From: an uncultured Oscillospiraceae bacterium
Lineage (GTDB): Bacteria > Bacillota > Clostridia > Oscillospirales > Oscillospiraceae
Direction: 5' to 3'
NCBI GenBank assembly: GCA_947632175.1
Contig: CANROC010000008.1
Span: forward strand, 1 to 64,000
DNA: 64,000 nucleotides
In this document: piece by piece, positions 6,097-48,828 of the stretch
Position numbering within the stretch: the first letter of the stretch is position 1
How the letters are laid out: the number at the start of each line of letters is the position of its first letter
The notes under the pieces: model-generated
What the model saw: the letters and a program-made list of their open reading frames with translations, nothing else
Told to the model about the DNA's origin: nothing
Databases searched by the model: none
Program-made: the position numbers and the translations under genes

Positions 6097-9054
6097 ATGA
6101 GGGACAGAAAAGTGATCAGGAAACTCAGGGGCGGTCTCTCTCTGGTGCTGGCGCTGTTGCTGCTGGTACCGGGTATGGGGCTGACCGCCTCAGCTGAGGA
6201 ACCGGCGGCCGCCACGGCTGCCACGGCCCAGACGGGCCAGTTCGTCAGCGAACGGATCTCCAACAACTACACGAAGGTGAGCAGCGCCTATTCTTCGCCG
6301 GTCTACAACGGCGAGGCGCTGCCGTTTGCCTTTGCCTCCGGCTCCGGCGCGGAGGTGACGGCGGACACCATGGGCTACAATGGCCCGGCTCTGGACGTCC
6401 ACGCGGGGGACACCGTAGAGCTGAAGGTCAACGTCCCCACCAAGGCCCTGTACGCTTTGTGCTTCGACTACCTCTCCTATGACGAGTCGATCCTGCCCAT
6501 TGAGTTCGGGATGATGGTGGACGGAGCCTACCCCTTCTACGAGGCCCGGAACGTGGAGCTCAACTCCGTCTGGGTACCCCAGGCCGAGAAGTCCTATGAC
6601 CGGTACAACGACCAGGTGGTCACCGTTCCGGACAAGGACCTGACCTGGCAGACGGGCGTCTATTTCCGGGACAGCTCCTACCGCCGTTCCACGCCGCTTC
6701 TGGTGGAGCTGGACGCCGGGGAGCACACCTTCACCTTTGAGGTGAAGAGCGGCAACTTCCTCTTCGGCGCGCTGACACTCATGGCCCCGGAGACGGTGCC
6801 CGCCTACGCTGCCGGCCAGAAGGCCGAGGGCAGCGAGCTCATCACCATCGAGGGCGAGGACTACGCCTGGACCAACGACTCCTCCGTCCACGCCCGGGCC
6901 GAGTTCGACACCGCCGTCAACCCCTATAAGATCAAGGACTCCGTCCTCAACACCGTGGACGTGGATTCCTTCGCCGACGCGGGGCAGTCCATCACCTACA
7001 AGTTCAACGTCTCCACCGCCGGCTGGTACTACATCGCCATGAACTACCGCCAGCCCAACAAGACGGACTTCCCGGTGTTCCTGGACGTGCGCGTGGACGG
7101 CGCGATCCCCAACGACGCCTTCCAGGACTATCAGCTTGCCTACACCAGCAGCTACGAGGTCCACACCCTCGCCGATGAAAACGGCGGGAAGCTGGCGGTG
7201 TATCTGGAGGCCGGCGAGCACACCGTCTCCTACACCATCTCCTTAGACTCCATCCGCTACGTGCTGGAGGGCGTGGAGGAGATCATGGCCGGCGTCAACG
7301 ACCTGGCCCTGGAGATCACCAAGGTCGCCGGCAACAACGCCGACAAGTACCGCGACCTGAAGCTCTCCCGGTACATCCCCGGCCTCGAGGACACCCTCAA
7401 CGGCTATGCCAACCAGCTCATCGAGCTTGAGAAGAGCGCCCGCCACTTCACCCCCAAGGGCAAGAACGTGGCCGTCATGTCCTCCATGCTGGTGGCCGCC
7501 AATCAGCTCAAGTCCCTGGCAGAGAGTCCCGATGAGATCCCCTACCGTATCGCCGAGCTCTCCTCCAGCACCAACTCCGTCAACCAGTACCTGGCCAACA
7601 CCATCGACTCCCTGCTGGAGAACGGCACGGCCATCGACCGGGTCTACATCTATCAGGAGGGCGCCAAGCTTCCGGAGGCTCCCGGGTTCTTCTCCTCCAT
7701 GTGGATGTCCATCAAGCGCTTCTTCGCCTCCTTCACCGACCAGTCCTACTCGGCCTCCAACACCGACAGGAACCACCTGCAGGTCTGGGTCAACCGCTCC
7801 AGCCAGTACGTCCAGGTCATGCAGAAGATGATCGACGCGGAGTTCACCCCGGCCACGGGCATCGATGTGGATATCTCCATCATGCCCGACCAGTACAAGC
7901 TGGTCCTGGCCAACTCCTCCGGCTCCGCCCCGGACGTGGCCACCGGTATCAACTACACCGTCCCCTATGAGCTGGCCGTCCGCGGCGCTCTGGTGGACAT
8001 GGCGCAGTTCGACGATTTCCAGGCCACCGCGGCCCCCTATGAGCCCGGCTTCTTCCTCACCGGCACCATCGGCAAGTCCGTCTACTCCATGCCGGAGACC
8101 ATGAACTTCTGGGTCCTGGTCTACCGCACCGACGTGCTCGACAAGCTGGGCCTGGAGGTGCCTGACACCATGGAGGATGTGCGGGATATGCTGCCGGAGC
8201 TGCAGATGCGCGGCCTGAACTTCTACTATCCCACCGCCGGCATGGCCGCCATGCGCAACTTCCACGGCACCACGCCTCTCATCGTCCAGAACGGCGGCGC
8301 CCTCTATTCCGGCACGGCCCAGGAGGGCACGACTCTCGGCAGCGAGGCCTCCGTCAACGGCTTCACACAGCTGACGGACCTCTTCACCGTCTACAATATC
8401 CCGGTGGATATCTCCAACTTCTATCAGCACTTCCGCAACGGCGATATCCCCATCGGCATCTGCGATTACGGCACCTATAACCTGATCTCCAACGCCGCCC
8501 CCGAGCTGGCCGGCTCCTGGGACATCTCCATCGTCCCCGGCACGGAGCAGCCTGACGGGACCATCAACCGCGCCACCTGCGGGTGCGCCGAGTCCACCGT
8601 CATCTTCAAGTCCGACGCCGAGCGCGAGGCCAAGGCTTGGGAGTTCATCAAGTGGTGGTCCTCCAGCGAGGTCCAGGCCGAGTTCGGTCAGACCATGCAG
8701 ATCACCTACGGCGATGAGTACATGTGGACCACCGCCAACACCGAGGCCTTTGCCCAGCTGCCTGTGGACAACGCCCACAAGCAGGTCATCCTGGAGTTCA
8801 TGAAGAACGTGGTGGACGTGGCCCGCGTTCCCGGCACCTACATGCTGGAGCGTGAGATGTCCAACGCTTTCAACGCCATCGTGGTAGACGGCGAGCCGGC
8901 CCAGAGCCGCATCGACGAGGCCGTCAAGACCATCGACCGCGAGATCATCCGCAAGCTCGAGGAGTTCGGCTACATCGACAGCGAAGGCAACACCATTGAG
9001 CCCTATGTGATCCCCAGCATCGACAGCATCAAGGGGATCCTGGGCAGAAACTGA
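6097..9054 (+). CDS. Giant ABC substrate-binding protein with N-terminal carbohydrate-binding-like domains
   Basis: A 985-residue secreted protein, about twice the usual length of a sugar-binding component. Residues 1-33 form a signal peptide ending in ASA; there is no lipobox Cys. Two beta-rich domains follow (about 60-255 and 255-390; the second begins ITIEGEDYAW), resembling CBM6/35-like jelly rolls. A helical linker spans about 390-550. The C-terminal 400 residues are a family 1 extracellular solute-binding domain (LQVWVNRSSQYVQVMQKM near 557; YPTAGMAAMRNF later). AAGGAGG at 6085-6091 sets the ATG; an in-frame start at 5992 would precede the signal peptide with an odd extension. It heads an operon with two permease genes. 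Likely role: capture of arabino-oligosaccharides. Without a lipid anchor it may be held by partner proteins (inference). Confidence 0.85.
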   Translation: MRDRKVIRKLRGGLSLVLALLLLVPGMGLTASAEEPAAATAATAQTGQFVSERISNNYTKVSSAYSSPVYNGEALPFAFASGSGAEVTADTMGYNGPALDVHAGDTVELKVNVPTKALYALCFDYLSYDESILPIEFGMMVDGAYPFYEARNVELNSVWVPQAEKSYDRYNDQVVTVPDKDLTWQTGVYFRDSSYRRSTPLLVELDAGEHTFTFEVKSGNFLFGALTLMAPETVPAYAAGQKAEGSELITIEGEDYAWTNDSSVHARAEFDTAVNPYKIKDSVLNTVDVDSFADAGQSITYKFNVSTAGWYYIAMNYRQPNKTDFPVFLDVRVDGAIPNDAFQDYQLAYTSSYEVHTLADENGGKLAVYLEAGEHTVSYTISLDSIRYVLEGVEEIMAGVNDLALEITKVAGNNADKYRDLKLSRYIPGLEDTLNGYANQLIELEKSARHFTPKGKNVAVMSSMLVAANQLKSLAESPDEIPYRIAELSSSTNSVNQYLANTIDSLLENGTAIDRVYIYQEGAKLPEAPGFFSSMWMSIKRFFASFTDQSYSASNTDRNHLQVWVNRSSQYVQVMQKMIDAEFTPATGIDVDISIMPDQYKLVLANSSGSAPDVATGINYTVPYELAVRGALVDMAQFDDFQATAAPYEPGFFLTGTIGKSVYSMPETMNFWVLVYRTDVLDKLGLEVPDTMEDVRDMLPELQMRGLNFYYPTAGMAAMRNFHGTTPLIVQNGGALYSGTAQEGTTLGSEASVNGFTQLTDLFTVYNIPVDISNFYQHFRNGDIPIGICDYGTYNLISNAAPELAGSWDISIVPGTEQPDGTINRATCGCAESTVIFKSDAEREAKAWEFIKWWSSSEVQAEFGQTMQITYGDEYMWTTANTEAFAQLPVDNAHKQVILEFMKNVVDVARVPGTYMLEREMSNAFNAIVVDGEPAQSRIDEAVKTIDREIIRKLEEFGYIDSEGNTIEPYVIPSIDSIKGILGRN

Positions 9055-9068
9055 GGAGGTGAACATCT

Positions 9069-10076
9069 GTGGCAACTGAAAGCTTAGCCAAGGAGGCCCC
9101 CATTACGCTGGCCCCTCCCAAGAAGAAAAAGAAGAACAAGATCTCCCGCCGGGAAAATAACTGGCACGGCTGGTTGTTCATCGGCCCTTACGCGCTCATC
9201 TTCGCCATCTTTATCCTGGTGCCCGTCATCCTGGCGGTCGTCCTCTCTTTCACGAACTTCAACGCCATCCAGTTCCCCAAGTTCGTTGGATTCCTGAATT
9301 ACATAACCATTCTCACCAACGACGCGGAGTTCATGAAGTACGTCCTGCCCAACACGGTGGTCTACGCCGTGGTGGTGGGCATCGGCGGCTACGCCCTGTC
9401 CTTCGTGCTGGCCTGGGCGCTGTGCAACCTGACAAAGCCTGTCCGCACCGTCTTCGCCCTGATCCTCTACTCGCCCTCCATGACCACGGGCGTGGCCATG
9501 ACGGTGCTCTGGAAGGTCATCTTCTCCGGTGACCAGGCGGGACTTCTCAACTCCTGGCTCATGGAGCTGGGCGTCATCACGGAGCCCATCATCTGGCTGA
9601 CGGACGCCAGGTTCCTCCTGCCCATCGTCATCATCATCGGACTTTGGTCCAGCATGGGCATCGGGTTCCTCTCCATGATCGCCGGTATCCTCAACACCGA
9701 CGAGTCCCTCTACGAGGCCGGCTCCATCGACGGCATCTCCAACCGTTTCCAGGAGATGTTCTACATCACCATCCCCCAGATGAAGCCCCAGATGCTCTTC
9801 GCCGCCGTCATGGCCATCGTGGGCGCCTTCCAGAACGGTATGGTGACCTCCATGCTCGTGGGCAACCCCTCCCCGGGCTACGCGTCCCAGCTCCTCGTCA
9901 ACCACATCGAGGACTACGGCTTCCAGCGGTATGAGATGGGCTACGCCGCCGCCATTTCCGTGGTGCTGCTGCTCATCGTACAGCTCTTCAGCAAGGGCGC
10001 CAACCTCTTGCTGACGGAAAAAGATCCCTATGGAAAGAAAGGAGGAGAAGAGGATGAACAAGGGGAAGAAAATTAA
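9069..10076 (+). CDS. ABC sugar transporter permease, MalF/LplB type (transporter 1)
   Basis: A 335-residue inner-membrane permease with a Lys-rich cytoplasmic N-terminus (residues 18-30) and six predicted helices. The EAA loop that docks the ATPase is visible in [13 protein letters not shown], followed by IPQMKPQ. It starts with GTG, with AGGAGGT overlapping the previous stop codon. The C-terminus is charged and overlaps the next permease gene by 23 bases. It pairs with the following gene and the giant binding protein; no ATPase is encoded here, so MsmX from 26648 presumably energises it. Confidence 0.92.
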
Positions 10077-10920
10077 CCCGAAAAAGTTTGAGCTGGGACA
10101 GCTCAAGATCATTCTGATCCTGCTGCCGCTGGTCATCTTCATGGGGATGCCCATCATCTTCATCATCAACCACGCCTTCAAGCCAATGGAGGAGCTCTTC
10201 GCCTTCCCGCCCACCTTCTTCGTGAAGAGCCCGGTCATGGACAACTTCTCCAAGCTCGGCGACTTCTTTGACACCAACGGTATCCCCCTGGCGCGGTACA
10301 TCTTCAACAGCATCCTGGTCACCGCCCTGACGGTGGGGCTGGCGCTCCTCCTCACCACCATGTCGGCCTTCGCTCTTTCCAAGATCAAGTTCAAGGGCCG
10401 CAACCTTCTGGGCCAGATCAACCAGATCGCCATCATGTTCGTCTCCACCGCCGTGCTGATCCCCCGGTATCTGGTGATCTGCCAGCTGCACCTCATCGAC
10501 AACATCCTGGCGCACATCCTGCCGCTGGTGGCTATGCCGGTGGCGCTGTTCCTGGTCAAGCAGTTCGTGGACCAGGTGCCCGACTCCCTCCTGGAGGCCG
10601 CCTATATGGACGGCGCCACGGACCTGGACGTGTACCTGAAGGTCATCCTGCCCATGATCAAGCCCGCCATCGCCACCGCCTCCATCCTGGTGTTCCAGCA
10701 GGTCTGGACCAACATGGAGACCTCCAGCTACTTCTTCAACGATGACAGTCAGAAGACCCTCACCTTCGCCATGAACACGCTGGTCAACGCCAACAACTCC
10801 GTGGCCGGCCAAGGTATGGGAGCCGCCGCCTCGCTGATCATGTTCCTTCCTAACCTTATCCTCTTCATTATCCTTCAGAATAAGGTTATGAACACCATGG
10901 CCAGCTCCGGTATTAAGTAA
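10054..10920 (+). CDS. ABC sugar transporter permease, MalG/YtcP type (transporter 1)
   Basis: The second membrane subunit, 288 residues, with six predicted helices and the EAA motif [23 protein letters not shown] eight bases before the ATG at 10054 fixes this start; an in-frame start 24 bases upstream lacks such a site. The coding start lies inside the end of the MalF-type gene, so the two subunits are probably coupled. It forms the import channel with the upstream permease. Confidence 0.92.
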
Positions 10921-10934
10921 GGGGGGAGGCAGAC

Positions 10935-13007
10935 ATGCGAAGAAAGCTTAAACGCACGGGAGCCATGCTGCTGCTGGTGCTGCTGCTCACAGCCATGGTC
11001 TTCTCCTTCACGGCCTCCGCCGAGACGCCTTACGTGACCTACACCATCAACGGTTACGGTCAGGTCCGGCAGACACAGACGGCGTATCTGGCCTACGCCA
11101 CCATCACCAAGTTCGGCGAGGAATCCCTGAGCGCCCCGGCGGATATATGCCTGGCGCCGGACGGGCTTTTGTACATCGCCGACTCCGGCAAGAACTCCGA
11201 GCAGGGCGTCCCCCGCATCGTCGTGGGCGACATCCAGGGCAACTTCATCAAGACGGTGGGCGAGGGGACCCTGGTCAACCCCAGGGGCGTCTTCGTCACC
11301 AAGGACGGCAGCATCTACGTGGCTGATAGGGACGCCGGGAAGGTGTTCATCTTCAACCAGGCCGGTGAGCTCATCCGGGAGTACGGCAAGCCCGACAGCC
11401 CCCTCTACGGCGACGGCCTGCCTTTCCAGCCCATCAAGCTCGTGGTCAATGACGCGGGGATCATGTTCATCATCTGCGAATCCAACACCAACGGTATCGT
11501 AGAGATATCCCCCACCGAGGGCGGCACGTTCCTGGGCTACTTCGGCACGAACTTCGCCACCACGGACATCATGACCATCATCTACCGGGCCATCCTCACC
11601 GACGCCCAGCGCGCCAAGATGGCCAGCAACATCCCGGCCACGCCCACGAACCTGGGCATCGACGCCAAGGGCCTTATCTACACCGTCACCCTGGGCAACG
11701 GTGTAGACACCCTGAAGCGCCTGAACATCGCCGGTACCAACATGATCCGCAACACCGATGAGACCTACGCCAGCAACCCCGTGGCGGTGGTGGCCGGCAA
11801 CCACGACAACGTCTACGTGGCCGACCAGCAGGGCTACATCTTCGAGTACAACACCGAGGGCGAGATGCTCTTCACTTTCGGCGGCCCCAACGATGATACC
11901 CAGCGCGTGGGACTTTCCAAGATGGTTACCGGCATCGCCATAGATACGGAAGACCGCATCTACGTGCTGGACTCCGACCTGGCCCAGGTGCAGATCTACG
12001 AGCCCACGGAGTTCACCAACCTCCTGCATAACGCCCTGTACCTCTACTCCAAGGGCCGCTACACCGAGGCCAAGGAGCCCCTGGCCCAGGTCCTCAAGAT
12101 GAACTCCATGTTCGACTACGCCAACAAGGCCATGGGCCGCAGCTACTTCCAGGAGGGCAACTACAAGCAGGCCCTCAAGTACGCCCGCCTTGCCAAGGAC
12201 TATGACGGCTACTCCGACGCCTACTGGGAGCTGCGCAACACGTGGCTGAAGAACAACATCATGACCGCCATCATCCTGTGCGTCCTCCTCTTTGTGGCGT
12301 ACAAGGTGATCAAGGCCCTGGACAAGAGGAGCCACATCCTCAATAAGCCCCGGAAATTCTTCCGGAAGCTCAAGAAGAACAAATTCATCAACAATCTCAA
12401 CTACGCCGGCTACTACATGAAGAAGCCGTCCGACGGCGCTTACGGCATCGCCGCGGAGGGAAGAGCCAACTGGCTGGTCTCCAGCTTCGTCCTGCTCCTC
12501 TTTATCGTGGAGTTCGTCATCGACAAGTACACCAAGGGCTTCCTCCTGAAGACCGTGATGGAGGGCCGGTATGAGATCGCCAGCGACATCGGCATGATCT
12601 TGGTCGTCGCCTTTGCGGTCACCGCCTGCACCTACCTTGTGTGTACCATCAACGAAGGCGAAGGCACGGTGAAGAAGATCTACACCTTCTTCTGCTACAG
12701 CCTGATGCCTTATGTGGTGCTCACGCCCCTGGCTTACGCCATCAGCCACATCGTCACCGTCAATGAGATGTTCCTGAGCCAGATGATCCAGATCCTCACC
12801 TACCTCTGGATCGCGGTGCTGCTGGTGGTGGGCCTGAAGGAGGTCAACAACTTCACGGCCAAGGAAACGGTGAAGGTCATCCTGCTCACGGCATTCACCG
12901 CCCTCATCCTGGCGCTCCTCATCTTCATCGTGTACGTGCTGTGGGCACAGGTATTCGACTTCTTGACCGCGATCATCGGGGAGGGGGTTTACAGACTTGG
13001 ATACTAA
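10935..13007 (+). CDS. NHL-propeller / TPR / Yip1-type membrane protein
   Basis: A 690-residue protein with a signal peptide (residues 1-30, ending SAE). NHL beta-propeller repeats follow from about 40 to 355 (ADICLAPDGLLYIADSGK, GVFVTKDGSIYVADRDAG, GIAIDTEDRIYVLDSD). Two TPR-like helical pairs occupy about 360-430 (YSKGRYTEAKEPLAQVLKM, YFQEGNYKQALKYARLAK). A transmembrane helix at about 440-462 is followed by a basic linker and a five-helix Yip1-like domain (about 510-690). The propeller and TPR should lie outside the cell. It sits between two permease pairs and overlaps the DUF5696 gene by 11 bases. From memory, YIP1-NHL genes next to DUF5696 and large binding-protein genes recur in Firmicutes, but I know of no assigned function. 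A scaffold or sensor for the transporter is a reasonable guess. Confidence 0.8.
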   Translation: MRRKLKRTGAMLLLVLLLTAMVFSFTASAETPYVTYTINGYGQVRQTQTAYLAYATITKFGEESLSAPADICLAPDGLLYIADSGKNSEQGVPRIVVGDIQGNFIKTVGEGTLVNPRGVFVTKDGSIYVADRDAGKVFIFNQAGELIREYGKPDSPLYGDGLPFQPIKLVVNDAGIMFIICESNTNGIVEISPTEGGTFLGYFGTNFATTDIMTIIYRAILTDAQRAKMASNIPATPTNLGIDAKGLIYTVTLGNGVDTLKRLNIAGTNMIRNTDETYASNPVAVVAGNHDNVYVADQQGYIFEYNTEGEMLFTFGGPNDDTQRVGLSKMVTGIAIDTEDRIYVLDSDLAQVQIYEPTEFTNLLHNALYLYSKGRYTEAKEPLAQVLKMNSMFDYANKAMGRSYFQEGNYKQALKYARLAKDYDGYSDAYWELRNTWLKNNIMTAIILCVLLFVAYKVIKALDKRSHILNKPRKFFRKLKKNKFINNLNYAGYYMKKPSDGAYGIAAEGRANWLVSSFVLLLFIVEFVIDKYTKGFLLKTVMEGRYEIASDIGMILVVAFAVTACTYLVCTINEGEGTVKKIYTFFCYSLMPYVVLTPLAYAISHIVTVNEMFLSQMIQILTYLWIAVLLVVGLKEVNNFTAKETVKVILLTAFTALILALLIFIVYVLWAQVFDFLTAIIGEGVYRLGY

Positions 13008-15273
13008 GACTAAGACTAAAAAGCGCAAGGTGATTATCTGGCTGAGCGTCATTCTGGCCCTGGTCATCATTGCTGCCGTCGTCGCCACGGTCCTCATCGT
13101 GCTGGGCAGCCGTTCGGACAAGATCGTCTCCGGCAATCACGTCCACCAGAGCGCCCTGCCTGTCACCAAGGGCCGGGTAGAGGCCAAGGATGACTACACC
13201 CTGGTGGCCGAGAGCGACAGCTACAGGCTCTACTACTGGGAGCCCCGGTTCTCCATCCTCATTGAGAACAAGGAGACCGGCGCGGTGCTGGAGTCCACCG
13301 TCTCCGACGAGAAGGACGACCACAAGAACAACGACGACTGGACCGGCACCATGAAGAGCGGCATTGCCATCGGCACCATCGAGAAGACCACCAAGTTTTC
13401 CGATAGGATCGACATGAACAATGCCAAGAACGAGATCGAGACCTATTACACCGACAACGGCATCTACGCCAAGATCTCTTTCCCCGATTACGGCATCAGC
13501 GTCGGCGTGGAGGTGAGCCTCCTGGACGACGAGCTGGTGGTCCGCATCCCTGAGGAATCCATCAAGGAGGAGAAGGAAGGCACCTACATCTACACCATCA
13601 GCCCCTTCCAGTTCCTCGGGTACACGTACCTGGGCGAGGAGAACGGCTACATGCTCATCCCCGACGGCAACGGCGCCCTCATCAACCTGGACGACAAGGA
13701 AGGGCGCTACGCCAGCGGCTTTGCCGGGCTCGTCTACGGCACGGACGTGGGCCTGACGGATATCGTCAAAACCTCCACCCTCTGGGAGCGGTATGAGACC
13801 GTCACCAGCGCCAACCCCGTGCTGGCCCCCGTCTTCGGCATGGCCCACACGGACGACCAGATCGCGTATCTGGGCATCGTGGAGAGCGGCGACCAGCGCG
13901 CCACCATCGAGGCCCATCCCAACGGCGCCCGCATCGACTACAACCGGTGCTTCGCCCGGTTCCTGCTGCGGGACGTCTACAACCAGCCCCTGTCCAACTC
14001 CGCCACCGCCAACACGGCGCTGACGGTGGAGGCCGACAGGCTCCACAGCGACCTGACGGTCCGCTACTGCCTCCTCTCCGGTGAGGACGCCAACTACATG
14101 GGCATGGCCAAGGCCTACCGCCAGTACCTGCTGGACACCGGCAAGATCGAGAAGCGCAACCTGAGCTACAACACCCGCGTGGACGTCCTGGGCGTGGAGC
14201 GCGAGGAGTTCCTTATGGGCACCACCTCGGTCCCCATGACCACCGCGGACCAGCTGGAGGACATCTACGCCGAGCTTCGCCGGGAGGGCGTGGCCAATGT
14301 GCTCACCGTCTACCACGGCTGGCAGAAGGGCGGCCTTTATGACCTGCCCATCACCAAGTACAAGGCGGACGGCTCCATCGGCGGCACCGGCGACCTCACG
14401 AAGCTCATCCTGGACGAGGCCGAGCAGGGCAACACCATCTACCTCTACAACGACGCCCTGCAGGTGAACGCCACCACCAACTCCAGCACTTACAGCGTCA
14501 TGAAGAAGGTCAACAAGCGCACCTTCGAGAACGACGTGAACGGCCAGGTCTACGACACGTTCTATTACCTGATGCCCAACAAGGCAGGGGAGAACCTGGC
14601 GGGGCTTTCCGAGAGCGCCGTCAAGGAGGGCGTGAAGAACATGGCCCTGACCGGCATCACCGGGCAGCTCTTCTCCTACAGCTACAAGGGCAATTACTAC
14701 TCCAGGACCGACACCATGGACATGTTCGTTGACGCGGTGGAGGCCGTGGACGAGGACATGAACCTGCTGCTGGAGACCCCCAACCAGTACCTGTGGAAGT
14801 ACGCCGACGCTATGCTGGATATGCCCCTGGGCTCCTCCGACTACCTCTACATCGATGAGGAGGTCCCGTTCCTCAGCCTGGTGCTGAAGGGCATCGTCCC
14901 CACCTATTCGGAGTTCGTGAACTTCGAGGCCAACAAGACCGAGAACTTCCTGAACATGGTGGAGGCCGGCATGTATCCCTCCTTCTACGTCACGGCGGAG
15001 GACTCCTCCAAGCTCATTTACACCAACTCCTCCAACCTCTACTCCCTGGAGTTCGACAGCTACCGTGACACCATCGCCCAGTATGACCGGGAGCTCCGGG
15101 CCCTGGCCGAGAAGGTGGGGACCTCCACCATCACGAATCACGAGATCCTTTCCAACGGCCTTGTGAAGGTCACATACGAAAACGGCGTCGTGATCTACGT
15201 CAACTACACCGAGTCGGCCCTGTCCGACGGAGGCGTGACGGTGGACGCGCTGTCCTATAAGGTAGGTGAGTGA
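12997..15273 (+). CDS. DUF5696 protein, membrane-tethered, possible extracytoplasmic glycosidase
   Basis: A 758-residue protein with a basic N-terminus and one transmembrane helix (about 12-36), so the bulk faces outwards. Residues about 60-340 look like a beta-sandwich of the mutarotase-like kind (YRLYYWEPRFSILIENKETG, GYMLIPDGNGALI). Residues about 390-700 alternate helices and strands with acidic residues after strands (NVLTVYHGWQKGGLYD, TIYLYNDALQVN, LYIDEEVPFLSLV), as in TIM-barrel hydrolases. The family name rests on recollection of similar proteins. TTG start, with a GGGAGGGGGT site; the start overlaps the upstream stop. Its place between two permease pairs suggests it processes or presents ligand. 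Hydrolase activity is inference. Confidence 0.72.
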   Translation: MDTKTKTKKRKVIIWLSVILALVIIAAVVATVLIVLGSRSDKIVSGNHVHQSALPVTKGRVEAKDDYTLVAESDSYRLYYWEPRFSILIENKETGAVLESTVSDEKDDHKNNDDWTGTMKSGIAIGTIEKTTKFSDRIDMNNAKNEIETYYTDNGIYAKISFPDYGISVGVEVSLLDDELVVRIPEESIKEEKEGTYIYTISPFQFLGYTYLGEENGYMLIPDGNGALINLDDKEGRYASGFAGLVYGTDVGLTDIVKTSTLWERYETVTSANPVLAPVFGMAHTDDQIAYLGIVESGDQRATIEAHPNGARIDYNRCFARFLLRDVYNQPLSNSATANTALTVEADRLHSDLTVRYCLLSGEDANYMGMAKAYRQYLLDTGKIEKRNLSYNTRVDVLGVEREEFLMGTTSVPMTTADQLEDIYAELRREGVANVLTVYHGWQKGGLYDLPITKYKADGSIGGTGDLTKLILDEAEQGNTIYLYNDALQVNATTNSSTYSVMKKVNKRTFENDVNGQVYDTFYYLMPNKAGENLAGLSESAVKEGVKNMALTGITGQLFSYSYKGNYYSRTDTMDMFVDAVEAVDEDMNLLLETPNQYLWKYADAMLDMPLGSSDYLYIDEEVPFLSLVLKGIVPTYSEFVNFEANKTENFLNMVEAGMYPSFYVTAEDSSKLIYTNSSNLYSLEFDSYRDTIAQYDRELRALAEKVGTSTITNHEILSNGLVKVTYENGVVIYVNYTESALSDGGVTVDALSYKVGE

Positions 15274-15275
15274 CC

Positions 15276-16358
15276 ATGGAAGAAACGAAAAAAATGACCC
15301 GCGCGGACAAAAAAGCACTGAAGGAGAAGATGAAGCACCTCAAGTCCGGCAAGCTTGAAAAACGCGACGGCCGGATGGGTTACTTCTTCATGATCCCCTG
15401 GTTCATCGGCGTGGCCGTGTTCCTGGCTTACCCCCTGGGCACCAGCATCTGGTACTCGGTGAACAACATCCGCTCCACGCCTCAGGGCCTTCTGACCACC
15501 TTCGTGGGGACGGGCAACTTCTCCAACATCCTCCTGCAGGACCCTGACTTCCTGGTCGAGCTGGTGGACTACGTAACAAGCACCATCCTGTCGGTGCCTA
15601 TCATCGTGGTCTTCGCCCTGATCATCGCCATGATGCTCAACATGAAGATCAAAGCCAAGGGCTTCTTCCGGCTGATCTTCTTCCTGCCGGTCATCATCGT
15701 CAGCGGCCCGATCCTGGGCATGCTCACCGAGGAGGGCGCCGGCTCCATCTCCGCCATCGACATGAACGCCCTCACCACCGCCATCAGCGGCGTCCTGCCG
15801 AAGATGCTGGCGGACCCCATCTCGGACCTCTTCAACAACATGATCACGACGCTGTGGTATTCCGGCGTGCAGATCCTGATCTTCCTCTCCGGTCTTCAAA
15901 AGATCGACAAGTCCATGTACGAGGCCGCCAAGATCGACGGCGGCTCCGGATGGGAGTGCTTCTGGAAGATCACCCTGCCGAATATCAAGCCCCTGATCCT
16001 CCTGAACGTGGTCTATACCGTCATCTTCATCTCCAGCAACTCGCAGAACCCCATCATCGGCCTCATCCAGAGCTCGATGCTCTCCGGCACCAAGGAGAGA
16101 GGCTACGGGTACGCCGCCGCCATGGCGTGGCTCTACACCGTTGTGGTGCTCCTCATCGTGGGCCTCTTCGCCCTCCTGCTCATGACCCGCAAGGGCGCCT
16201 ATGAGAAGCAGGTCAAGAAAGCCAAGAAGGCCAAGAAGCAGGAAGCCCGCAACCGTAAAAAGATCGAAAGGAGGAACGCGCGTAATGCAAAACGTATTGA
16301 GCGTCAGAGAGCGAAGGGCAAGATCACCTCGCGCACCACGAGCCGAGAGGATTACTAA
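15276..16358 (+). CDS. ABC sugar transporter permease, MalF/LplB type (transporter 2)
   Basis: A 360-residue permease with a basic N-terminus, six predicted helices and the EAA motif YEAAKIDGGSGWECFW. The C-terminal 55 residues are extremely Lys/Arg-rich, an unusual cytoplasmic tail that overlaps the next gene by 74 bases. The ATG at 15276 lies two bases past the DUF5696 stop; a GTG six bases earlier is an alternative. It pairs with the next permease and with the binding lipoprotein at 17487. Confidence 0.9.
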   Translation: MEETKKMTRADKKALKEKMKHLKSGKLEKRDGRMGYFFMIPWFIGVAVFLAYPLGTSIWYSVNNIRSTPQGLLTTFVGTGNFSNILLQDPDFLVELVDYVTSTILSVPIIVVFALIIAMMLNMKIKAKGFFRLIFFLPVIIVSGPILGMLTEEGAGSISAIDMNALTTAISGVLPKMLADPISDLFNNMITTLWYSGVQILIFLSGLQKIDKSMYEAAKIDGGSGWECFWKITLPNIKPLILLNVVYTVIFISSNSQNPIIGLIQSSMLSGTKERGYGYAAAMAWLYTVVVLLIVGLFALLLMTRKGAYEKQVKKAKKAKKQEARNRKKIERRNARNAKRIERQRAKGKITSRTTSREDY

Positions 16359-17316
16359 TTCTCCGAAGAAGCCCTGGTACAAGAACATCACCAAGGACAA
16401 GGTCCGGCGCTTCCTCATGGGCACCAAGGACCGCGAGGGCTTTTTGAAGCTCTTCCTGGTCTACGCGCTGCTCATCTGCATCGGCTTCATCTACCTCTAC
16501 CCGATCCTCCACATGGTCTCCGTCAGCTTCATGACCCTGGACGATCTGCTGGACTCCTCCATCAAGTGGCTGCCCAGCTCCCTGAACCTCGCCAACTATA
16601 AGCAGGCCGCCGCCAGTATGGACTTCTGGAGCTCCCTGGGCCAGAGCATCCTCCTGGCCGGGATCCCCACCATCTGCAACCTCATCTCCTGCTCCATCAT
16701 CGGCTACGGCCTGGCCCGGTTCAACTTCCCCGGCAAGAACGTCTGCATGGGTATCATCATCCTGAGCTTCGTGCTTCCCAGCCAGGTGACCATGATCCCC
16801 ACCTACGTGCTCTATTCCAATCTTGGCATCCTGAACACCATCTGGGCCTTCATCCTGCCCTCCATGGTGGGCCAGGGCATCAACGCCCCCATCTTCATCC
16901 TGATCTTCTGGCAGTTCTTCCGCCAGGTGCCCAAGGTGCTGAATGAGGCGGCCAAGATCGACGGCGCGGGCTACTTCGAGTCCTTCTACAAGATCGCCAT
17001 CCCCAGCGGCAAGCCCGCCTTCATCACCGTGGCGCTTTTCTCCTTCGTGTGGTACTGGAACGAGGCGTATCTCACCAGCCTCTATGTCCACGGCTTCACC
17101 GGCCAAGGCATGACGAGCCTGGTCATCCAGCTCCAGAACTTCGCCACCAACTACAACAGCTACGCCAGCACCGCCGTCAGCGGCGCGGCGAGCCTCAACG
17201 AATCCATCAACATGGCCGGCACCATGCTTTCCATCCTGCCGCTGATGCTCCTCTACTTCGTCCTGCAGAAGCAGTTCGTGGAGTCCATCGACAAGGCCGG
17301 CATCACAGGCGAATAA
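16285..17316 (+). CDS. ABC sugar transporter permease, MalG/YtcP type (transporter 2)
   Basis: A 343-residue permease with six predicted helices and the motif NEAAKIDGAGYFESFYK. AAAGGAGG at 16267-16274, ten bases before the ATG at 16285, decides the start; a longer in-frame reading from 16201 would only add the neighbour's Lys-rich sequence. The first 45 residues are basic and disordered. Last gene of the operon that begins at 6097. Confidence 0.9.
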   Translation: MQNVLSVRERRARSPRAPRAERITNSPKKPWYKNITKDKVRRFLMGTKDREGFLKLFLVYALLICIGFIYLYPILHMVSVSFMTLDDLLDSSIKWLPSSLNLANYKQAAASMDFWSSLGQSILLAGIPTICNLISCSIIGYGLARFNFPGKNVCMGIIILSFVLPSQVTMIPTYVLYSNLGILNTIWAFILPSMVGQGINAPIFILIFWQFFRQVPKVLNEAAKIDGAGYFESFYKIAIPSGKPAFITVALFSFVWYWNEAYLTSLYVHGFTGQGMTSLVIQLQNFATNYNSYASTAVSGAASLNESINMAGTMLSILPLMLLYFVLQKQFVESIDKAGITGE

Positions 17317-17329
17317 GTCCTTATCCCCA

Positions 17330-17360
17330 CGCCGGGAACGGCCTCCGGCCGCTCCCGGCG
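17330..17360 (+). other. GC-rich stem-loop downstream of the permease operon
   Basis: Outer arms CGCCGGGA/TCCCGGCG (17330-17337 and 17353-17360) and inner arms CGGCC/GGCCG form a strong hairpin 14 bases after the permease stop. No U-tract follows. It could be a weak terminator or a processing site before the binding-protein gene. Confidence 0.5.
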
Positions 17361-17402
17361 GGCGGAATGCTTGGGCATATCGCCAAAAAACAAGCTTACC
17401 AC

Positions 17403-17431
17403 TGTACATTTTGCCAAAAATGTGGTATAAC
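17403..17431 (+). promoter_or_regulatory. Promoter of the second binding-protein gene
   Basis: TGTACA (17403-17408), 17 bp, then TATAAC (17426-17431), preceded by TGTGG, which supplies an extended -10 (TGG directly before TATAAC). This would let the binding lipoprotein be made in excess over the permeases. Confidence 0.55.
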
Positions 17432-17486
17432 GAGAGTAATTGACAGGGCGCCGTGCCCGTCAAAATAAACGAAAATGGAGGCATTT

Positions 17487-19079
17487 ATGAAAAAGAAGAT
17501 ACTGGCACTTGTCCTGGCCGCTCTGATGCTCATGAGCGTCCTCGCCGCCTGCAACAATGGCGACGGCGGCGGAAGCGGCTCGGGCGCGACCACCGTTTCC
17601 AACGAGTACGAAGAGGTGGAGATCAATGGCTGGAAGTACAAGAAGGCCACGGATATGACCACCGAAAACATCACCCTGTCCGTCCACAGCTTCGACCAGC
17701 AGCAGGTGGATGAGCTCCTGGCCAAGCGCTTCATGGAGATCTACCCCAACATCAAGGTCACCGTCTCCTACGCCGCCGTGGGCGATGATTACACCAACGC
17801 CCTGGCCGCCATGGTCCAGAACAAGACCACCCCCGACGTCATCATGTATTCCGACGCCGACTACGCCCTGTCCAACGGCCTTCTCCTGGACATCTCCAGC
17901 TTCTACAACTCCGACAATGAGACCAAGAACCTGGCCGACACCGTCAACTCCGCCGGCCTCGGCACCTTCAACCTGGACGGCGGCCAGCGCTACGGCGTCC
18001 CGTTCAAGTTCTTCCCCGGCATCGTCTTCATTGACCGGAACGTGCTGAAGACCCTGAACATCTCCATCCCCAATCAGCAGTGGAGCTGGTCCGACATGAT
18101 CGACATCATCAAGCAGGCCACCGGCCACACCGACATCGACGGCATGAAGTACTATGGCCTCGGCTGGTACAACCGTCTTGACTCCTACTACGGCGTCGCC
18201 ACCGGCCAGGACGTCATCGGTGAGTTCGGCTTCAACGGCAAGACCTTCGACGTCACCAAGTGGGCCGTGGGCAAGCAGGAGTTTGCCGACCTTCTGGTGG
18301 GCGACTACGCCGCTCCCCAGCGTGAGACCGACGCCAACGAGGCGTGGACCGGCGACTGGGAGCTGTGGTTCGGCCAGACCGGCCACGTGGCCGTCTTCTC
18401 CGAGGCCTTCTGGACCTTCCAGAGCTCCTGGAACGCCCCCGCTTTCCTGGAGGCCAACCCCGGCCTTGACATCGTCCCCTACGTTATCCCCGCTGTCTCT
18501 GAGGCTGACGCCGGCGCCGCCCACCACTCCATCGCCACCATCGACTACGGCGGAGTTTCCTCCGGCACCAAGTATCCCCGCGAGGCCTATGAGCTTCTGA
18601 AGTTCATGTCCTTCGGTATCGACGGATGGCACACCCGCAACGAGATCTTCGCCGATCCCAATAACGTCAACGCCTCCGGCGTGCCCCTGAAGAACGACGT
18701 TATGCCCGTGCCCATCACCAAGGACCAGACCATCTGGGACGAGTACATCAAGCTCTACTGCGAGGGCATGGACGAGGAGCACACCCAGCTGTGGCGTGAC
18801 TACTTCGCCTCCTGCATGCAGCCCATCTCCTACGGCTGGACCAACATCGCCGGCTATTGGAACTTCTGCGATGAGTACTTCAACAAGGTGGACATCCACA
18901 CCCAGACCGAGACCGGCGCCGCCAAGGCCGCTGACTTCATCGACGAGATCAACCGCCAGGCCAACTACTACCACGCCAAGGCCATGATCGACTACTTCGG
19001 GCCCAACTCCATCTACAAAGTGCTCACCGAGGACGAGACCAAGTTCTATCAGGACATCGTCACCGCCTTCGAGAGCTGA
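17487..19079 (+). CDS. ABC sugar transporter substrate-binding lipoprotein (transporter 2)
   Basis: A 530-residue family 1 extracellular solute-binding protein. The signal peptide ends in the lipobox LAAC (Cys at about 22), followed by a Gly/Ser-rich linker. Typical features include LLAKRFMEIYPNIKVTVSYA near the mature start, PDVIMYSDADYALSNG, and a Trp- and Tyr-rich C-terminal half. TGGAGG before the ATG at 17487 sets the start; an in-frame ATG four codons upstream would bury the ribosome site. Its position after permease pair 2 marks it as their receptor. Ligand inferred as an arabino-oligosaccharide or related pentoside. Confidence 0.88.
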   Translation: MKKKILALVLAALMLMSVLAACNNGDGGGSGSGATTVSNEYEEVEINGWKYKKATDMTTENITLSVHSFDQQQVDELLAKRFMEIYPNIKVTVSYAAVGDDYTNALAAMVQNKTTPDVIMYSDADYALSNGLLLDISSFYNSDNETKNLADTVNSAGLGTFNLDGGQRYGVPFKFFPGIVFIDRNVLKTLNISIPNQQWSWSDMIDIIKQATGHTDIDGMKYYGLGWYNRLDSYYGVATGQDVIGEFGFNGKTFDVTKWAVGKQEFADLLVGDYAAPQRETDANEAWTGDWELWFGQTGHVAVFSEAFWTFQSSWNAPAFLEANPGLDIVPYVIPAVSEADAGAAHHSIATIDYGGVSSGTKYPREAYELLKFMSFGIDGWHTRNEIFADPNNVNASGVPLKNDVMPVPITKDQTIWDEYIKLYCEGMDEEHTQLWRDYFASCMQPISYGWTNIAGYWNFCDEYFNKVDIHTQTETGAAKAADFIDEINRQANYYHAKAMIDYFGPNSIYKVLTEDETKFYQDIVTAFES

Positions 19080-19104
19080 GCGGCGTAAGACCTGACACAG
19101 ACCG

Positions 19105-19133
19105 TATTTTACCCGCGTGAGCGGGTGAAAATA
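19105..19133 (+). other. Intergenic stem-loop between the two lipoprotein genes
   Basis: TATTTTACCCGC (19105-19116) pairs with the segment 19121-19133 around the loop GTGA, with one bulged base. It follows the binding-protein stop and lacks a U-tract. Such hairpins often stabilise binding-protein mRNA and lower expression of the next gene. Confidence 0.5.
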
Positions 19134-19169
19134 GAAATCATTTCCTGAAATTCAAGGAAGGAGAACAAC

Positions 19170-20759
19170 ATGAAAAAGCTTTTGGCAATTGTCCTGGCGC
19201 TTATGATGGTTCTCTCCCTGGCCGCCTGCGGCGGTGACGGAGATACCCAGAAGACCGATCCCCCGACTGATCCTCCCAAGACCGACGGCAGCACCGAGCC
19301 CCCTGTCACCGAGCCCCCCGCGGCTGAGGACCTGCCCGCCAACCCCCTCTACTACAACGGCTTTGAGACCACCGACGGCCTGACCGCCGTGCATCGTGTG
19401 GACAAGAGCGAGAGCCCCAAGGCCGACGCCGCCAACTACGGCATCGCCCCCTCCGTCCATGAGATCATGCAGGTCAACGGCGTTGACGGCAAGGCTGTCG
19501 CCGTGGACGGCAAGTACGGCATCAGCTTCGACAACTTCCCCACCACCTCCGACGACAGCTACACCATCGCCTTCTGGTACGCGGCTGACCGTTACGGCCT
19601 GTACATGCCCATCCTGCAGATGGGCCGCAACGTGGGCGGCAAAACCAATTCCACCTACATCAACTTCACCCGCACCAACTGGGGCGTCGGCGGCGTTGAC
19701 TGCGCTCCTGTCGCCTGGTCCCGCAACTCCGACACCAACCCCGTGAACCCCTGGATGGGCAACAACATCGACGAGAAGGGCAAGAAGGAGTGGATCCATG
19801 TTGTCCTGGTCGTGGACGGCGTTGAGTATATGGACGCCGATCCTACCAACGGCCCCTGCCCGCACGTGGGCGCCACCATGTACGTCAACGGCGTTGAGGT
19901 CATGAAGGCCGACGCCTCCGTCATCGGCACCAAGGATGAGGCCGGCGTGGACACCAGCGCCAACTGGATGGGCATCGCCCCCCACATGATCGACAGCGCC
20001 GGCGAGTACGGCCTGGAGTGCTACTTCGGCATCAACTACTGGGATTCCCTGTTCAAGGGCTACATGGACGAGTTCTACCTCTATGACGAGGCCCTGACCC
20101 CCGGCCAGGTCACCGCCCTGTACACCAAGAACACCGCTCCCGCCTATGAGAAGTTCCCCGACTACACCGGCCCCGTGGATGAGGAAGCTCCTGAGCCCGA
20201 GACTCCCACCCTGCCCGAGATCACGCCCGACGCCAGCGCCATCGACGTTCTCGGCACCACTGCCCGTGACAACGGCTTCTGGTCCGACACCACCGCCGGC
20301 TATGAGCTGAAGGACGGCACCCCCCTCACCATCAAGCTCCACAACTACTCTGACGGCGCCGCGGTATTTGACAACGTTGTGTTCGCGTTCTCCAACACCG
20401 CTGTCACCACCGACAAGGTTGCCTCCGCCGACAATTATCCCGGCTATGCCGAGTATGCCGTCTTCCGTCCCGACGGAGACATGACCGCGAACGCCGCTTG
20501 GGGCGCCGAGGGCTTCACGGTCAATTACGAGAAGACCTGGGACAACGCCGCCTATATCGAGGCCATGAAGGACGCTGAGCTCACCGTCGTGCTTACCCGC
20601 AACGGTACTGAGCTCACCGCCGACATCACCATCACCCCCGCTGCCGGCGACGCCCTGACTGAGAAGGTTACCCTTTCCTCCAACTTCACCGCCGAGTCTC
20701 CGATGTTCGTACATATGACGAACGAGAAGAGCTACGTTGAGATCCTCAGCGTTGAGTAA
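19170..20759 (+). CDS. LamG-domain surface lipoprotein, probable glycan-binding
   Basis: A 529-residue lipoprotein: signal peptide with LAAC lipobox (Cys at about 20), a Thr/Pro/Asp-rich spacer (25-55), then a LamG / concanavalin-like jelly roll from about 60 to 320 (YYNGFETTDGLTAV, YTIAFWYAADRYGLYMPIL, GYMDEFYLYDEALTPGQV). A Glu/Pro linker near 335-350 leads to a second beta domain (355-529) with no recognisable catalytic motif. GGAAGGAG precedes the ATG. It is co-transcribed with the binding lipoprotein and followed by a strong terminator. A role in holding polysaccharide near the importer, like a Gram-positive analogue of SusE/F, is inference. It could instead be a degenerate GH43/GH16-type lectin module. 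Confidence 0.7.
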   Translation: MKKLLAIVLALMMVLSLAACGGDGDTQKTDPPTDPPKTDGSTEPPVTEPPAAEDLPANPLYYNGFETTDGLTAVHRVDKSESPKADAANYGIAPSVHEIMQVNGVDGKAVAVDGKYGISFDNFPTTSDDSYTIAFWYAADRYGLYMPILQMGRNVGGKTNSTYINFTRTNWGVGGVDCAPVAWSRNSDTNPVNPWMGNNIDEKGKKEWIHVVLVVDGVEYMDADPTNGPCPHVGATMYVNGVEVMKADASVIGTKDEAGVDTSANWMGIAPHMIDSAGEYGLECYFGINYWDSLFKGYMDEFYLYDEALTPGQVTALYTKNTAPAYEKFPDYTGPVDEEAPEPETPTLPEITPDASAIDVLGTTARDNGFWSDTTAGYELKDGTPLTIKLHNYSDGAAVFDNVVFAFSNTAVTTDKVASADNYPGYAEYAVFRPDGDMTANAAWGAEGFTVNYEKTWDNAAYIEAMKDAELTVVLTRNGTELTADITITPAAGDALTEKVTLSSNFTAESPMFVHMTNEKSYVEILSVE

Positions 20760-20887: not shown

Positions 20888-21844
20888 ATGGACAAAAAGC
20901 TTGAATTCAACAAGGTGTGGATCCCCCAAAGGGCGGATCCCTTCGTCACCAGGGATGAGAAAGGGAACTACTACTTCACCGCCTCCATCCCCAGCTACGA
21001 CAAGATCGTTCTCCGCAGGGCCCCGTCCCTGGCGGAGCTTCCCGAGGCCGAGGAGCACGTCCTGTGGACGGCCCACGAGTCCGGCCCCCAGAGCTTACAT
21101 ATCTGGGCCCCCGAGCTCCACAAGGTCTTCGGCAAGTGGTACATCTACTACTCCGGCGGCATGAAGACCCACCCCTGGCACATCCGCCCCTACGTGCTGG
21201 AGTGCCAGAGCGACGACCCCATCGCCGGTCCCTGGGTTGAAAAGGGCAAGATGCGGGCGGCCAAGGACGACAAGTTCTCTTTCCGCGCTTTCTCCCTGGA
21301 CGCCACCGTCTTCCAGTGCAACGGCTCCTGGTACTACGTTTGGGCCGAAAAGGTGGGCGTAGGCAAGCAGGTCTCCAACCTCTACATCGCCCGGATGAAA
21401 AACGGCTATACGCTGGACACCGTCCAGGTGATGCTCACCACCCCCGACTACGATTGGGAGCGCCACGGCTTCTGGGTCAACGAGGGCCCGGCGGTCATCA
21501 AGCGCAACGGCAAGGTCTATCTCACCTACTCCGCCTCCGATACCGGCGTCAACTACTGCATGGGCATGCTCACCGCCGACGAGGACGCGGACCTCTTGGA
21601 CCCCTTAAGCTGGAAAAAGGAGCGCTGGCCCGTCCTGCGCACGGATCTCGAAAAGGGCGTCTACGGTCCCGGCCACAACTCCTTCACCAAGGACGAAAAC
21701 GGCAACGACATCCTCGTCTTCCACGCCCGCACCGAGCCGGAGATCGAGGGCAACCCCCTCTACAACCCCAACCGCCACGCCATGCTCCAGCCCATCGACT
21801 GGAACGACGAAAAGCCCATTTTCAGCTTCGACAACGAGCTGTAA
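20888..21844 (+). CDS. GH43 exo-acting alpha-L-arabinofuranosidase, cytoplasmic
   Basis: A 318-residue single-domain GH43 enzyme without a signal peptide. Triad: Asp17 in RADPFV, Asp138 in SLDATVF, Glu199 in NEGPAVI. The length and these motifs fit intracellular exo-1,5-alpha-L-arabinofuranosidases (GH43 subfamily 26-like; recollection). Product: L-arabinose from imported oligosaccharides. It follows a terminator, so it begins a new unit with GH51 26 bases downstream; I could not find a clear promoter in the 80-bp gap. The ribosome site is a modest AAAGGCAGG. Confidence 0.85.
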   Translation: MDKKLEFNKVWIPQRADPFVTRDEKGNYYFTASIPSYDKIVLRRAPSLAELPEAEEHVLWTAHESGPQSLHIWAPELHKVFGKWYIYYSGGMKTHPWHIRPYVLECQSDDPIAGPWVEKGKMRAAKDDKFSFRAFSLDATVFQCNGSWYYVWAEKVGVGKQVSNLYIARMKNGYTLDTVQVMLTTPDYDWERHGFWVNEGPAVIKRNGKVYLTYSASDTGVNYCMGMLTADEDADLLDPLSWKKERWPVLRTDLEKGVYGPGHNSFTKDENGNDILVFHARTEPEIEGNPLYNPNRHAMLQPIDWNDEKPIFSFDNEL

Positions 21845-21870: not shown

Positions 21871-23379
21871 ATGGCAACTCTGAAGATCAACGAAAACGAA
21901 AAGCTCAGCCACATCGCCCCCGAAATTTACGGCCATTTTTCCGAGCACCTTGGCCGGTGCATTTACGAGGGGCTCTATGTGGGCGAAAATTCCGATATCC
22001 CCAACGAGAACGGGATGCGCAAGGACGTGGTGGAGGCTCTGCGGGAGCTGAAGGTCCCCGTTCTGCGCTGGCCGGGCGGCTGCTTTGCCGACGAGTACCA
22101 CTGGAAGGACGGCATCGGCCCCAAGGCGACCCGGAAAAAGATGATCAACACCAACTGGGGCGGGGTCATGGAGGACAATTCCTTCGGCACCCACGAGTTC
22201 TTTGAGCTCTGCCGCCAGATCGGCTGCAAGACCTACATCAACGGCAACGTGGGCTCCGGCTCCGTGCAGGAGATGAGCGAGTGGATCGAGTACATGACCT
22301 TCCCCGGCGTCTCCCCCATGGCCGATGAGCGCGCCAAAAACGGCCACCCCGGCCCCTGGAAGGTGGATTTCTTCGGCGTGGGTAACGAAAACTGGGGCTG
22401 CGGCGGCAACATGACGCCGGAGTATTACGGCAACCTCTACCGCCGTTACCAGACCTTCGTCCGCCACTACGACAAGGCCGCCCCCATCAAAAAGGTCTGC
22501 TGCGGGGCCAACGTGGACGACGCCTTCTGGACCGAGGGGGTCCTGAAGACCTGCTTCGCCCAGCCCCAGCCGGACTTCGCCCACGGGTTCATGGATTTCC
22601 TGAGCCTCCACTACTACGTCCATCCCGGCGGATGGAAGCACAAGGGCAGCGCCACGCAGTTTGACGAGGAGATGTTCTATACCACCATGGCCAAGGCCCT
22701 CTATATGGAGGACCTCATCAACCTCCACGGGTCCATCATGGACAAATACGACCCCGCCAAGAAGATCGGCATGAGCGTGGACGAGTGGGGCGGCTGGTAC
22801 GACGTGGAGCCCGGCACCAACCCCGGCTTCCTCTATCAGCAGAACACCGTCCGGGACGCGCTGATCGCCGGCATTACCCTCAACATCTTCAACAAGCACT
22901 CCGACCGTGTGCGCATGGCCTGCCTTGCCCAGATGGTCAACGTCCTCCAGTCCGTGGTTCTCACCGAGGGCCCGGAGATGGTCCTGACGCCCACCTATCA
23001 CGTGATGCACATGTACCGCCACCACCAGGACGGCGACCTTGTGAGAAGCGCCCTCTCCGGCGTCAAGACCGTGGGCGCGGGCAGCGCCGCCGTGCCGCAG
23101 ATCACCGAGTCCGTCTCCGTCAAGGACGGCGTCCTCACCGTGACGCTGTGCAACCTGTCCGCCACGGATGCCGAGACGGTGGATGTGGAGCTGGAGAACG
23201 GCCCCTACAGCACGCTGCTGGAGTCCAGGATCGTCGCCTCCGGCGATATCCACGACTACAACACCTTCGAGGATAAGAACAAGGTCATTGAAAAGGACTG
23301 GAACGTCACCGGCACCGACAGCGGCGTCCGCGTGGAGCTCCCCGCCGCCAGCGTGGTGGAGATCAGGCTTCAGAAATGA
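21871..23379 (+). CDS. abfA: GH51 alpha-L-arabinofuranosidase
   Basis: A 502-residue cytoplasmic GH51 enzyme of normal length. Landmarks: [15 protein letters not shown] at the start, [13 protein letters not shown], acid/base Glu173 in GNENWG and nucleophile Glu305 in SVDEWG. A C-terminal beta-sandwich runs from about 385. It releases terminal alpha-L-arabinofuranose from arabinan and arabinoxylan fragments. It is coupled to the DUF6171 gene by an ATGA overlap and co-transcribed with the GH43 gene. Confidence 0.95.
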
Positions 23380-23621: not shown

Positions 23622-23622
23622 A

Positions 23623-24540: not shown

Positions 24541-24571
24541 AGGAATACCCCCAACAGTTTCTTTTGACACC

Positions 24572-24649: not shown

Positions 24650-24678
24650 CAGGACATGATTTTGTGGGGAAAACGTCG

Positions 24679-26647: not shown

Positions 26648-27820
<1,173 letters not shown>

Positions 27821-32181: not shown

Positions 32182-32182
32182 T

Positions 32183-48785: not shown

Positions 48786-48789
48786 CGTA

Positions 48790-48828
48790 TCACCTGTAAA
48801 GTCACCTATAAAGCGTTTTCGCTTTATA
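48790..48828 (-). promoter_or_regulatory. Leader hairpin and tandem ribosome-site repeat of ylxM
   Basis: A perfect 9-bp hairpin, TATAAAGCG/CGCTTTATA with a TTTT loop (48807-48828), starts about four bases after the predicted transcription start. Overlapping it are two tandem 12-bp units (48790-48801 and 48802-48813, one mismatch), each giving AGGTGA on the mRNA strand; the nearer serves the ATG at 48785. Confidence 0.6.

Follow-up and report, generated by a model that had tools for sequence, protein, structure and literature searches.

In the usual picture, a Gram-positive bacterium that degrades fibre imports carbohydrates through one solute-binding protein (SBP) and two permeases, with a shared ATPase. 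The first 64,000 nucleotides of contig CANROC010000008.1, from an uncultured Oscillospiraceae bacterium (hereafter the window), contain an L-arabinan locus in which a single operon encodes two permease pairs and, between them, two further membrane proteins. Its core consists of eight tightly packed plus-strand genes, encoding in order a big SBP, MalF1, MalG1, an NHL-TPR-Yip1 protein, a DUF5696 protein, MalF2, MalG2 and a second SBP (SBP2). We propose, at a probability of roughly 45%, that these genes encode a carbohydrate import machine made of two MalFG importers, in which DUF5696 mainly binds and orients the glycan and NHL-TPR-Yip1 serves as scaffold. This proposal starts from the observed genes, their order and their co-inheritance, and we infer the roles with the help of predicted folds.

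Conservation of the eight-gene operon

We searched 196 genomes of the class with the DUF5696 profile and for the NHL-Yip1 protein, and counted linkage over 61 DUF5696 matches of at least 300 bits and 16 weaker ones, leaving out second gene pieces and matches below 63 bits. For 58 of the 61 stronger matches, the same strand carries an NHL or Yip1 match at a distance of 0.36-3.6 kb upstream; of the three unlinked ones, G451 begins at contig base 7, G351 is a partial match and G391 is unexplained. Among the weaker matches, 15 are proteins of about 570-680 residues and one is linked, namely G392, a piece at a contig edge. Upstream of 54 of the 61 long DUF5696 genes lies a gene for the big SBP, a conserved family (alignment A6). 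Of the remaining seven, G309, G324, G391 and G451 have a big SBP elsewhere in their genome on a different contig, and in G475 (contig C1) the NHL match starts at contig base 80. Counted per genome, a long DUF5696 occurs in 46, a big SBP in 45 and both in 44, the two DUF5696 genomes without a big SBP being 73% and 75% complete; at most four candidates per genome were scored in the big-SBP scan, so that its counts are lower bounds. A preliminary description of this DNA had called NHL-Yip1 and DUF5696 integral to the importer, a view that rare linkage to such transporters elsewhere would have undermined; the linkage (58/61 for NHL or Yip1, 54/61 for the upstream big SBP) supports it. In 14 control genomes DUF5696 never exceeded the cut-off (two gave weak matches), and a survey of 299 genomes of the phylum returned any match in 33 and one above the cut-off in 26.

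We mapped 121 neighbourhoods, comprising the window, 40 loci chosen by hand from the phylum and class scan matches, and 80 close relatives (the best 80 of at least 575 confirmed stretches); gene calls are longest open reading frames (ORFs), with approximate starts and overlaps. The run from big SBP through MalF, MalG, NHL and DUF5696 to the second MalF and MalG is complete in 90 of the 121. By map reading, the other 31 consist of 18 contig-end cuts, 8 cases with broken or uncalled ORFs and 5 true variants, four of which (L125-L127 and L129) lack the big SBP and MalFG1, and the fifth (L124) has them behind MalG2. NHL-TPR and Yip1 form a single gene in 95 of 118 neighbourhoods, two adjoining genes in 16 and a truncated one in 7. 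Spacing is at most 100 nucleotides (nt) from the NHL gene to DUF5696 in 117/118 cases and from DUF5696 to MalF2 in 117/117. Within the window, the overlapping starts described earlier were recovered: DUF5696 begins inside the NHL gene (11-nt overlap), and MalF2 begins either at a GTG at 15270, overlapping the DUF5696 stop by 4 nt, or at an ATG at 15276, 2 nt behind that stop. Because this gene order recurs, a chance arrangement is excluded, and so is an oddity specific to the window. The eight-gene operon is widespread among bacteria, and a sizeable share of its carriers comes from animal guts.

Some individual copies deserve separate mention. The window's own genome holds a second module copy (L090, G000:C12:8001-28000), in which DUF5696 is split into ORFs of 536 and 310 aa and MalG1 is uncalled; it is perhaps decayed or misassembled. 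At about 7331-10545 of L099 (G331:C1:500001-520000), DUF5696 appears as ORFs of 150 and 727 aa, and the two ORFs that separate them, of 263 and 498 aa, run on the opposite strand, a pattern resembling an insertion into the gene. L206 is a module in a metagenome-assembled genome labelled Anaerolineaceae, its DUF5696 sharing 44% identity with that of the window, through either transfer or a binning error. Finally, DUF5696 is expanded in G082, G062, G135, G040 and G165, with 8-15 matches of at least 371 bits counted per genome; big SBPs are fewer there (4-7 counted).

Permease pairs, ATPase and membrane anchors

The two SBPs and four BPD_transp_1 permeases of the window all exceed their Pfam cut-offs, as a CUT1-type importer requires, and all four permeases carry EAA-type loops (Table 1). 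The EAA loop of a permease is the docking site for the ATPase, and its presence in all four rules out a nonfunctional second pair. In the MalF tree, all 98 MalF1 proteins fall on one side and all 117 MalF2 proteins on the other (split support 0.997), the MalF2 clade containing in addition just two MalF, both from modules overlooked by the parser. The MalG tree likewise separates all 101 MalG1 from all 115 MalG2; nine further MalG, of which some lie outside modules, also fall on the MalG1 side, so that the MalG1 clade is not demonstrably exclusive. Since both trees split pair 1 from pair 2, the second permease pair is, on phylogenetic grounds, an old importer that was inherited separately. The perfect separation of the pairs across loci rules out that one MalFG pair arose from the other by recent tandem duplication.

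The ATPase had been expected to be a distant MsmX. Instead, a MalK/MsmX-type gene with ABC_tran and OB_MalK matches, as required of a MalK-type ATPase, lies within the locus, which means that the ATPase need not be distant; this local gene is a candidate for powering these permeases. The same genome has two further OB_MalK matches above the cut-off outside the locus. At other loci, 2 of 94 neighbouring proteins matched ABC_tran; a dedicated ATPase is therefore seldom nearby, and ATPase sharing is likely.

The big SBP has a hydrophobic N-terminus, an N-terminal region with a CBM35-like part (CBM_35 match of 26.7 bits, slightly below the Pfam cut-off of 28), a helical linker and a C-terminal SBP_bac_1/8 domain. 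A pattern search of the window's big SBP found no lipobox, and across loci the pattern occurs in 78 of 88 SBP2 versus 1 of 94 big SBPs. Without a lipid anchor, the big SBP needs some other means of attachment; it may dock to the NHL or DUF5696 protein, and an uncleaved signal anchor is equally possible. For DUF5696, pattern counts gave a single hydrophobic segment in 113 of 121 proteins and a lipobox-like pattern in 8. The NHL-TPR-Yip1 protein of the window matches NHL (55 bits) and Yip1 (PF04893; 51 bits against a cut-off of 28.6), with a TPR_16 match below threshold. Its predicted layout is a propeller (about 48-357), TPR-like helices (359-420), a long helix with a transmembrane (TM) segment, and a C-terminal helical Yip1 part.

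The DUF5696 ectodomain and the proposed working of the module

The DUF5696 protein of the window matches PF18952 at 580.3 bits (cut-off 25.6) and, at E up to 0.001, no other family; the GH129 family PF11308 is matched neither by it nor by anything in its genome. Its N-terminal helix (6-42) contains a single TM segment and is followed by a predicted ectodomain (about 64-758); the predicted model has the GH129 fold, with an N-terminal beta domain, a TIM barrel and a C-terminal beta domain. In the GH129 enzyme NagBb, Asp435 is catalytic and equivalent to Asp486 of DagB (PMC5698469). In a phmmer comparison, the GH129 protein L238 places Asp517 on NagBb Asp435 and Glu561 on Glu478, the stretch alone scoring just 2.3 bits; both residues are invariant in 4/4 GH129 proteins. 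The glutamate at the Glu478 position is presumably the acid/base. A search of the open-licence PMC literature for GH101 residue numbers found none.

The window protein keeps one residue of the GH129 dyad (Asp at the end of beta4, Glu at beta5): the nucleophile position holds Gly553 by hhalign or Thr552 by MAFFT, and Glu593 stands at beta5 in both. Across 40 diverse module-linked DUF5696 proteins, an acid lies within 592-594 in 13 and near both positions in 9, the exact Asp553 and Glu593 occur together in one, and the beta5 column holds 14 residue types. In the window's own group of 77, Gly553 is found in 73 and any acid within 551-554 in 6; the profile comparison of this group with GH129 aligned just 75 C-terminal columns, and the diverse set gave a longer alignment. 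Standalone relatives, in contrast, carry both Asp553 and Glu593 in 9/9 (9 of 15 short DUF5696 proteins were compared; a tenth locus, L139, with a 21.7-bit match and Ala at the Glu position, was dropped from the counts). In an unrooted tree, the 40 module-linked proteins stand on one side of a split (support 0.973), with the 9 standalone and the 4 GH129 proteins on the other. Based on this split and the catalytic-column counts, the module-linked form looks like one lineage generally without the dyad, while its sister proteins keep it. PF18952 mixes the long module-linked form with standalone proteins of about 570 aa (L130-L138), which may be active enzymes, hitherto uncharacterised.

In the mechanism that we propose, DUF5696 would be a type II membrane protein whose ectodomain, akin to GH129-type alpha-glycosidases, now serves mostly to bind and orient glycan chains next to the channel rather than to cleave them. 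The NHL propeller and TPR helices, held by Yip1, would tether DUF5696 to MalFG2 and may help retain the big SBP. Enzymes encoded in the locus would trim arabinan, the channels would receive oligosaccharides from the SBPs, and a MalK-type ATPase, in the window probably the local one, would drive import by way of the permease EAA loops.

Several observations weigh against this proposal. The TM and lipobox assignments are simple pattern counts, the sequence alignments disagree by one column at the nucleophile (Thr552 versus Gly553), and 23 of the 40 diverse members carry some acid within 551-554. Moreover, the window's own group keeps Glu593, aligned with the GH129 beta5 Glu, in 76/77 members and Asp486, at the end of beta3, as D in 63/77, which might signal an enzyme with a different catalytic pair. 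According to PMC5698469, DagB is active even though it retains just one of the two NagBb catalytic residues, so the loss of one residue is no proof of lost activity. The kept Glu593 and Asp486, the DagB case, the GH129 fold of the predicted model and the nine diverse members having acids near both positions speak for DUF5696 as an active, membrane-tethered extracellular glycosidase that trims oligosaccharides at the importer mouth; in the arabinan group its catalytic pair would have changed, perhaps to Glu593 with Asp486. We nevertheless consider such an enzyme somewhat unlikely, given the glycine of the nucleophile column in the window's group, the near absence of the exact pair and the variable beta5 column among diverse members, and the retention of both residues in every standalone relative. 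The variable GH129 positions favour a presenter over an enzyme; of the two roles first suggested, enzyme or presenter, the latter gains, with the qualification that the window's group keeps one of two residues.

The other points against concern joint action. The module can be read as half A (big SBP with MalF1/MalG1) and half B (MalF2/MalG2, SBP2, NHL-TPR-Yip1 and DUF5696). In 12 phylum genomes, chosen partly for DUF5696 without an adjoining big SBP and therefore giving no frequency estimate, we counted 60 DUF5696 (at least 371 bits) and 34 big SBPs (at least 754 bits), and at least 20 of the 60, shorter pieces being left out, have an upstream big SBP. Half B occurs alone, as NHL-DUF5696-MalF2-MalG2 with a small SBP nearby, in L125-L127 and L129, and half A alone (big SBP-MalF-MalG) in L225, L229 and L234-L236. 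Since the halves are apart in some lineages, joint action of two channels, as originally proposed, is not obligatory. Within the class, the halves mostly share one operon (54/61). Two independent importers and accessory proteins could share a promoter and form no joint complex, which is compatible with other readings of DUF5696. However, this appears rather improbable to us in view of the shared operon, the co-occurrence of the halves in 44/46 genomes of the class, and the inheritance of the permease pairs as distinct lineages. It is distinctly unlikely that NHL-TPR-Yip1 and DUF5696 form a glycan sensor or a unit for permease assembly or quality control rather than for substrate delivery, as neither protein matched a kinase or other signalling domain. 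Altogether, we retain the import machine with a glycan-presenting DUF5696 as our working model.

Substrate setting and comparison with known systems

The genes named in the preliminary description are open and match their stated families, including the lipoproteins SBP2 (lipobox) and its Laminin_G_3 neighbour (lipobox-like start). SBP2 is followed by the Laminin_G_3 lipoprotein, GH43, arabinofuranosidase, GH127, MalK-type ATPase, araA, FGGY kinase, class II aldolase and two transketolase parts; ahead of the core lie two GH43-type ORFs (+), followed by GH27-type (Melibiase_2) and GH43-type ORFs (-). We take the arabinofuranosidase to be GH51-type. A 375-aa ORF without a Pfam match (23440-24567, +) lies between the arabinofuranosidase and GH127 genes, overlapped by an opposite-strand ORF of 316 aa, and a 2470-aa ORF (48775-56187, +) lies apart from the importer.

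Table 1. Features of the L-arabinan locus, in window coordinates
Feature	Position	Strand	Remarks
Big SBP, 985 aa	6097..9054	+	longest ORF begins at 5992; SBP_bac_1/8 match
MalF1 permease	9069..10076	+	EAA-type loop EAGSIDG at residue 216
MalG1 permease	10030..10920	+	longest ORF, real start may be later; EAA loop EAAYMDG
NHL-TPR-Yip1 protein	10935..13007	+	NHL, TPR-like helices, TM segment, Yip1
DUF5696 protein	12997..15273	+	PF18952 match; N-terminal TM helix, predicted GH129-like ectodomain
MalF2 permease	15270..16358	+	start GTG 15270 or ATG 15276; EAA loop EAAKIDG
MalG2 permease	16201..17316	+	longest ORF, real start probably later; EAA loop EAAKIDG
SBP2, solute-binding lipoprotein	17475..19079	+	lipobox
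Laminin_G_3 domain protein	19170..20759	+	lipobox-like start
GH43	20888..21844	+	domain match
Alpha-L-arabinofuranosidase	21871..23379	+	Alpha-L-AF_C match
GH127 beta-L-arabinofuranosidase	24664..26613	+	domain match
MalK/MsmX-type ABC ATPase, candidate motor	26648..27820	+	ABC_tran, OB_MalK, TOBE_2
L-arabinose isomerase araA	27836..29410	+	domain match
FGGY carbohydrate kinase, ribulokinase-like	30613..32181	+	domain match
Class II aldolase, araD-like	32102..32878	+	domain match

The original label of arabinoside importer fits the window, whose GH43, GH51-type, GH127, araA, kinase and aldolase genes are arabinan-related, and does not extend to the module in general, other copies of which neighbour GH26, GH9, GH94, GH35, GH3, GH10 or GH16 genes. 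Specifically, 144 neighbour proteins (at least 270 aa, either strand) were listed at other loci and 94 of them scanned; among the first 25 of 124 families, GH10 and GH26 were matched in three each and GH43, GH5, GH3 and GH16 in two each. Of 18 neighbours inspected singly, six are glycoside hydrolases (GH43, GH94, GH3, GH9, GH35, and GH26 with CBM27); the other 12 comprise regulators, proteins resembling lectins or CBMs, unrelated enzymes and proteins with no match. These enzymes are tied to the module by position alone, and their variety rules out an arabinan-only function.

The operon's function seems to be undescribed so far. DUF5696 is named in no paper of the open-licence PMC literature, though subscription papers or locus-tag descriptions could still hold it, and search listings of the same literature for Yip1, NHL repeat and ABC transporter gave nothing on the operon. 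As a widespread unit, it adds two conserved proteins and a second importer to the usual importer picture. We file it as a variant of the CUT1-type importer, the class of MalFGK2 and MsmEFGK, with which it shares an SBP, MalF/MalG with EAA loops and a MalK/MsmX-type ATPase gene; unlike those systems, it has two permease lineages per operon, a 985-aa CBM35-like SBP with no lipobox, and two extra membrane proteins. DUF5696 in turn differs from the GH129 alpha-N-acetylgalactosaminidase NagBb and the GH129-like anhydrogalactosidase DagB in its N-terminal TM segment, in catalytic positions that are unconserved in most module-linked members, and in a gene fixed in a transporter operon.

SusC/SusD is the glycan uptake system of Bacteroidota, in which surface capture is coupled to import, a coupling that the module would share; no TonB-dependent porin or SusD was found among the 30 window ORFs scanned (E up to 0.001). 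A bolder version of our model, which we regard as unlikely, would make the module a Gram-positive SusCD counterpart, in which a retired glycosidase (DUF5696) and the NHL-TPR-Yip1 scaffold thread chains of many plant glycans from the big CBM35-like SBP into two cooperating ABC channels.

An analogy for how DUF5696 may work lies in 4F2hc and rBAT, the heavy chains of heteromeric amino acid transporters, which likewise combine one TM helix with a glycosidase-fold ectodomain that serves a transporter. The analogy carries no claim of kinship: the heavy chains are vertebrate proteins with an alpha-amylase (GH13) fold and an SLC7 partner, and the DUF5696 ectodomain does not have a GH13-type domain as its best match, as an SLC3 heavy chain would. 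If DUF5696 is a transporter-bound former glycosidase, a functionless family would gain a function, and both the annotation of its members as glycosidases and the use of PF18952 as one functional group would call for caution. It would also provide a bacterial parallel to 4F2hc, which lacks catalytic residues, and to rBAT, which keeps them with activity not shown, the main roles of both being stability and trafficking according to PMC8537225.
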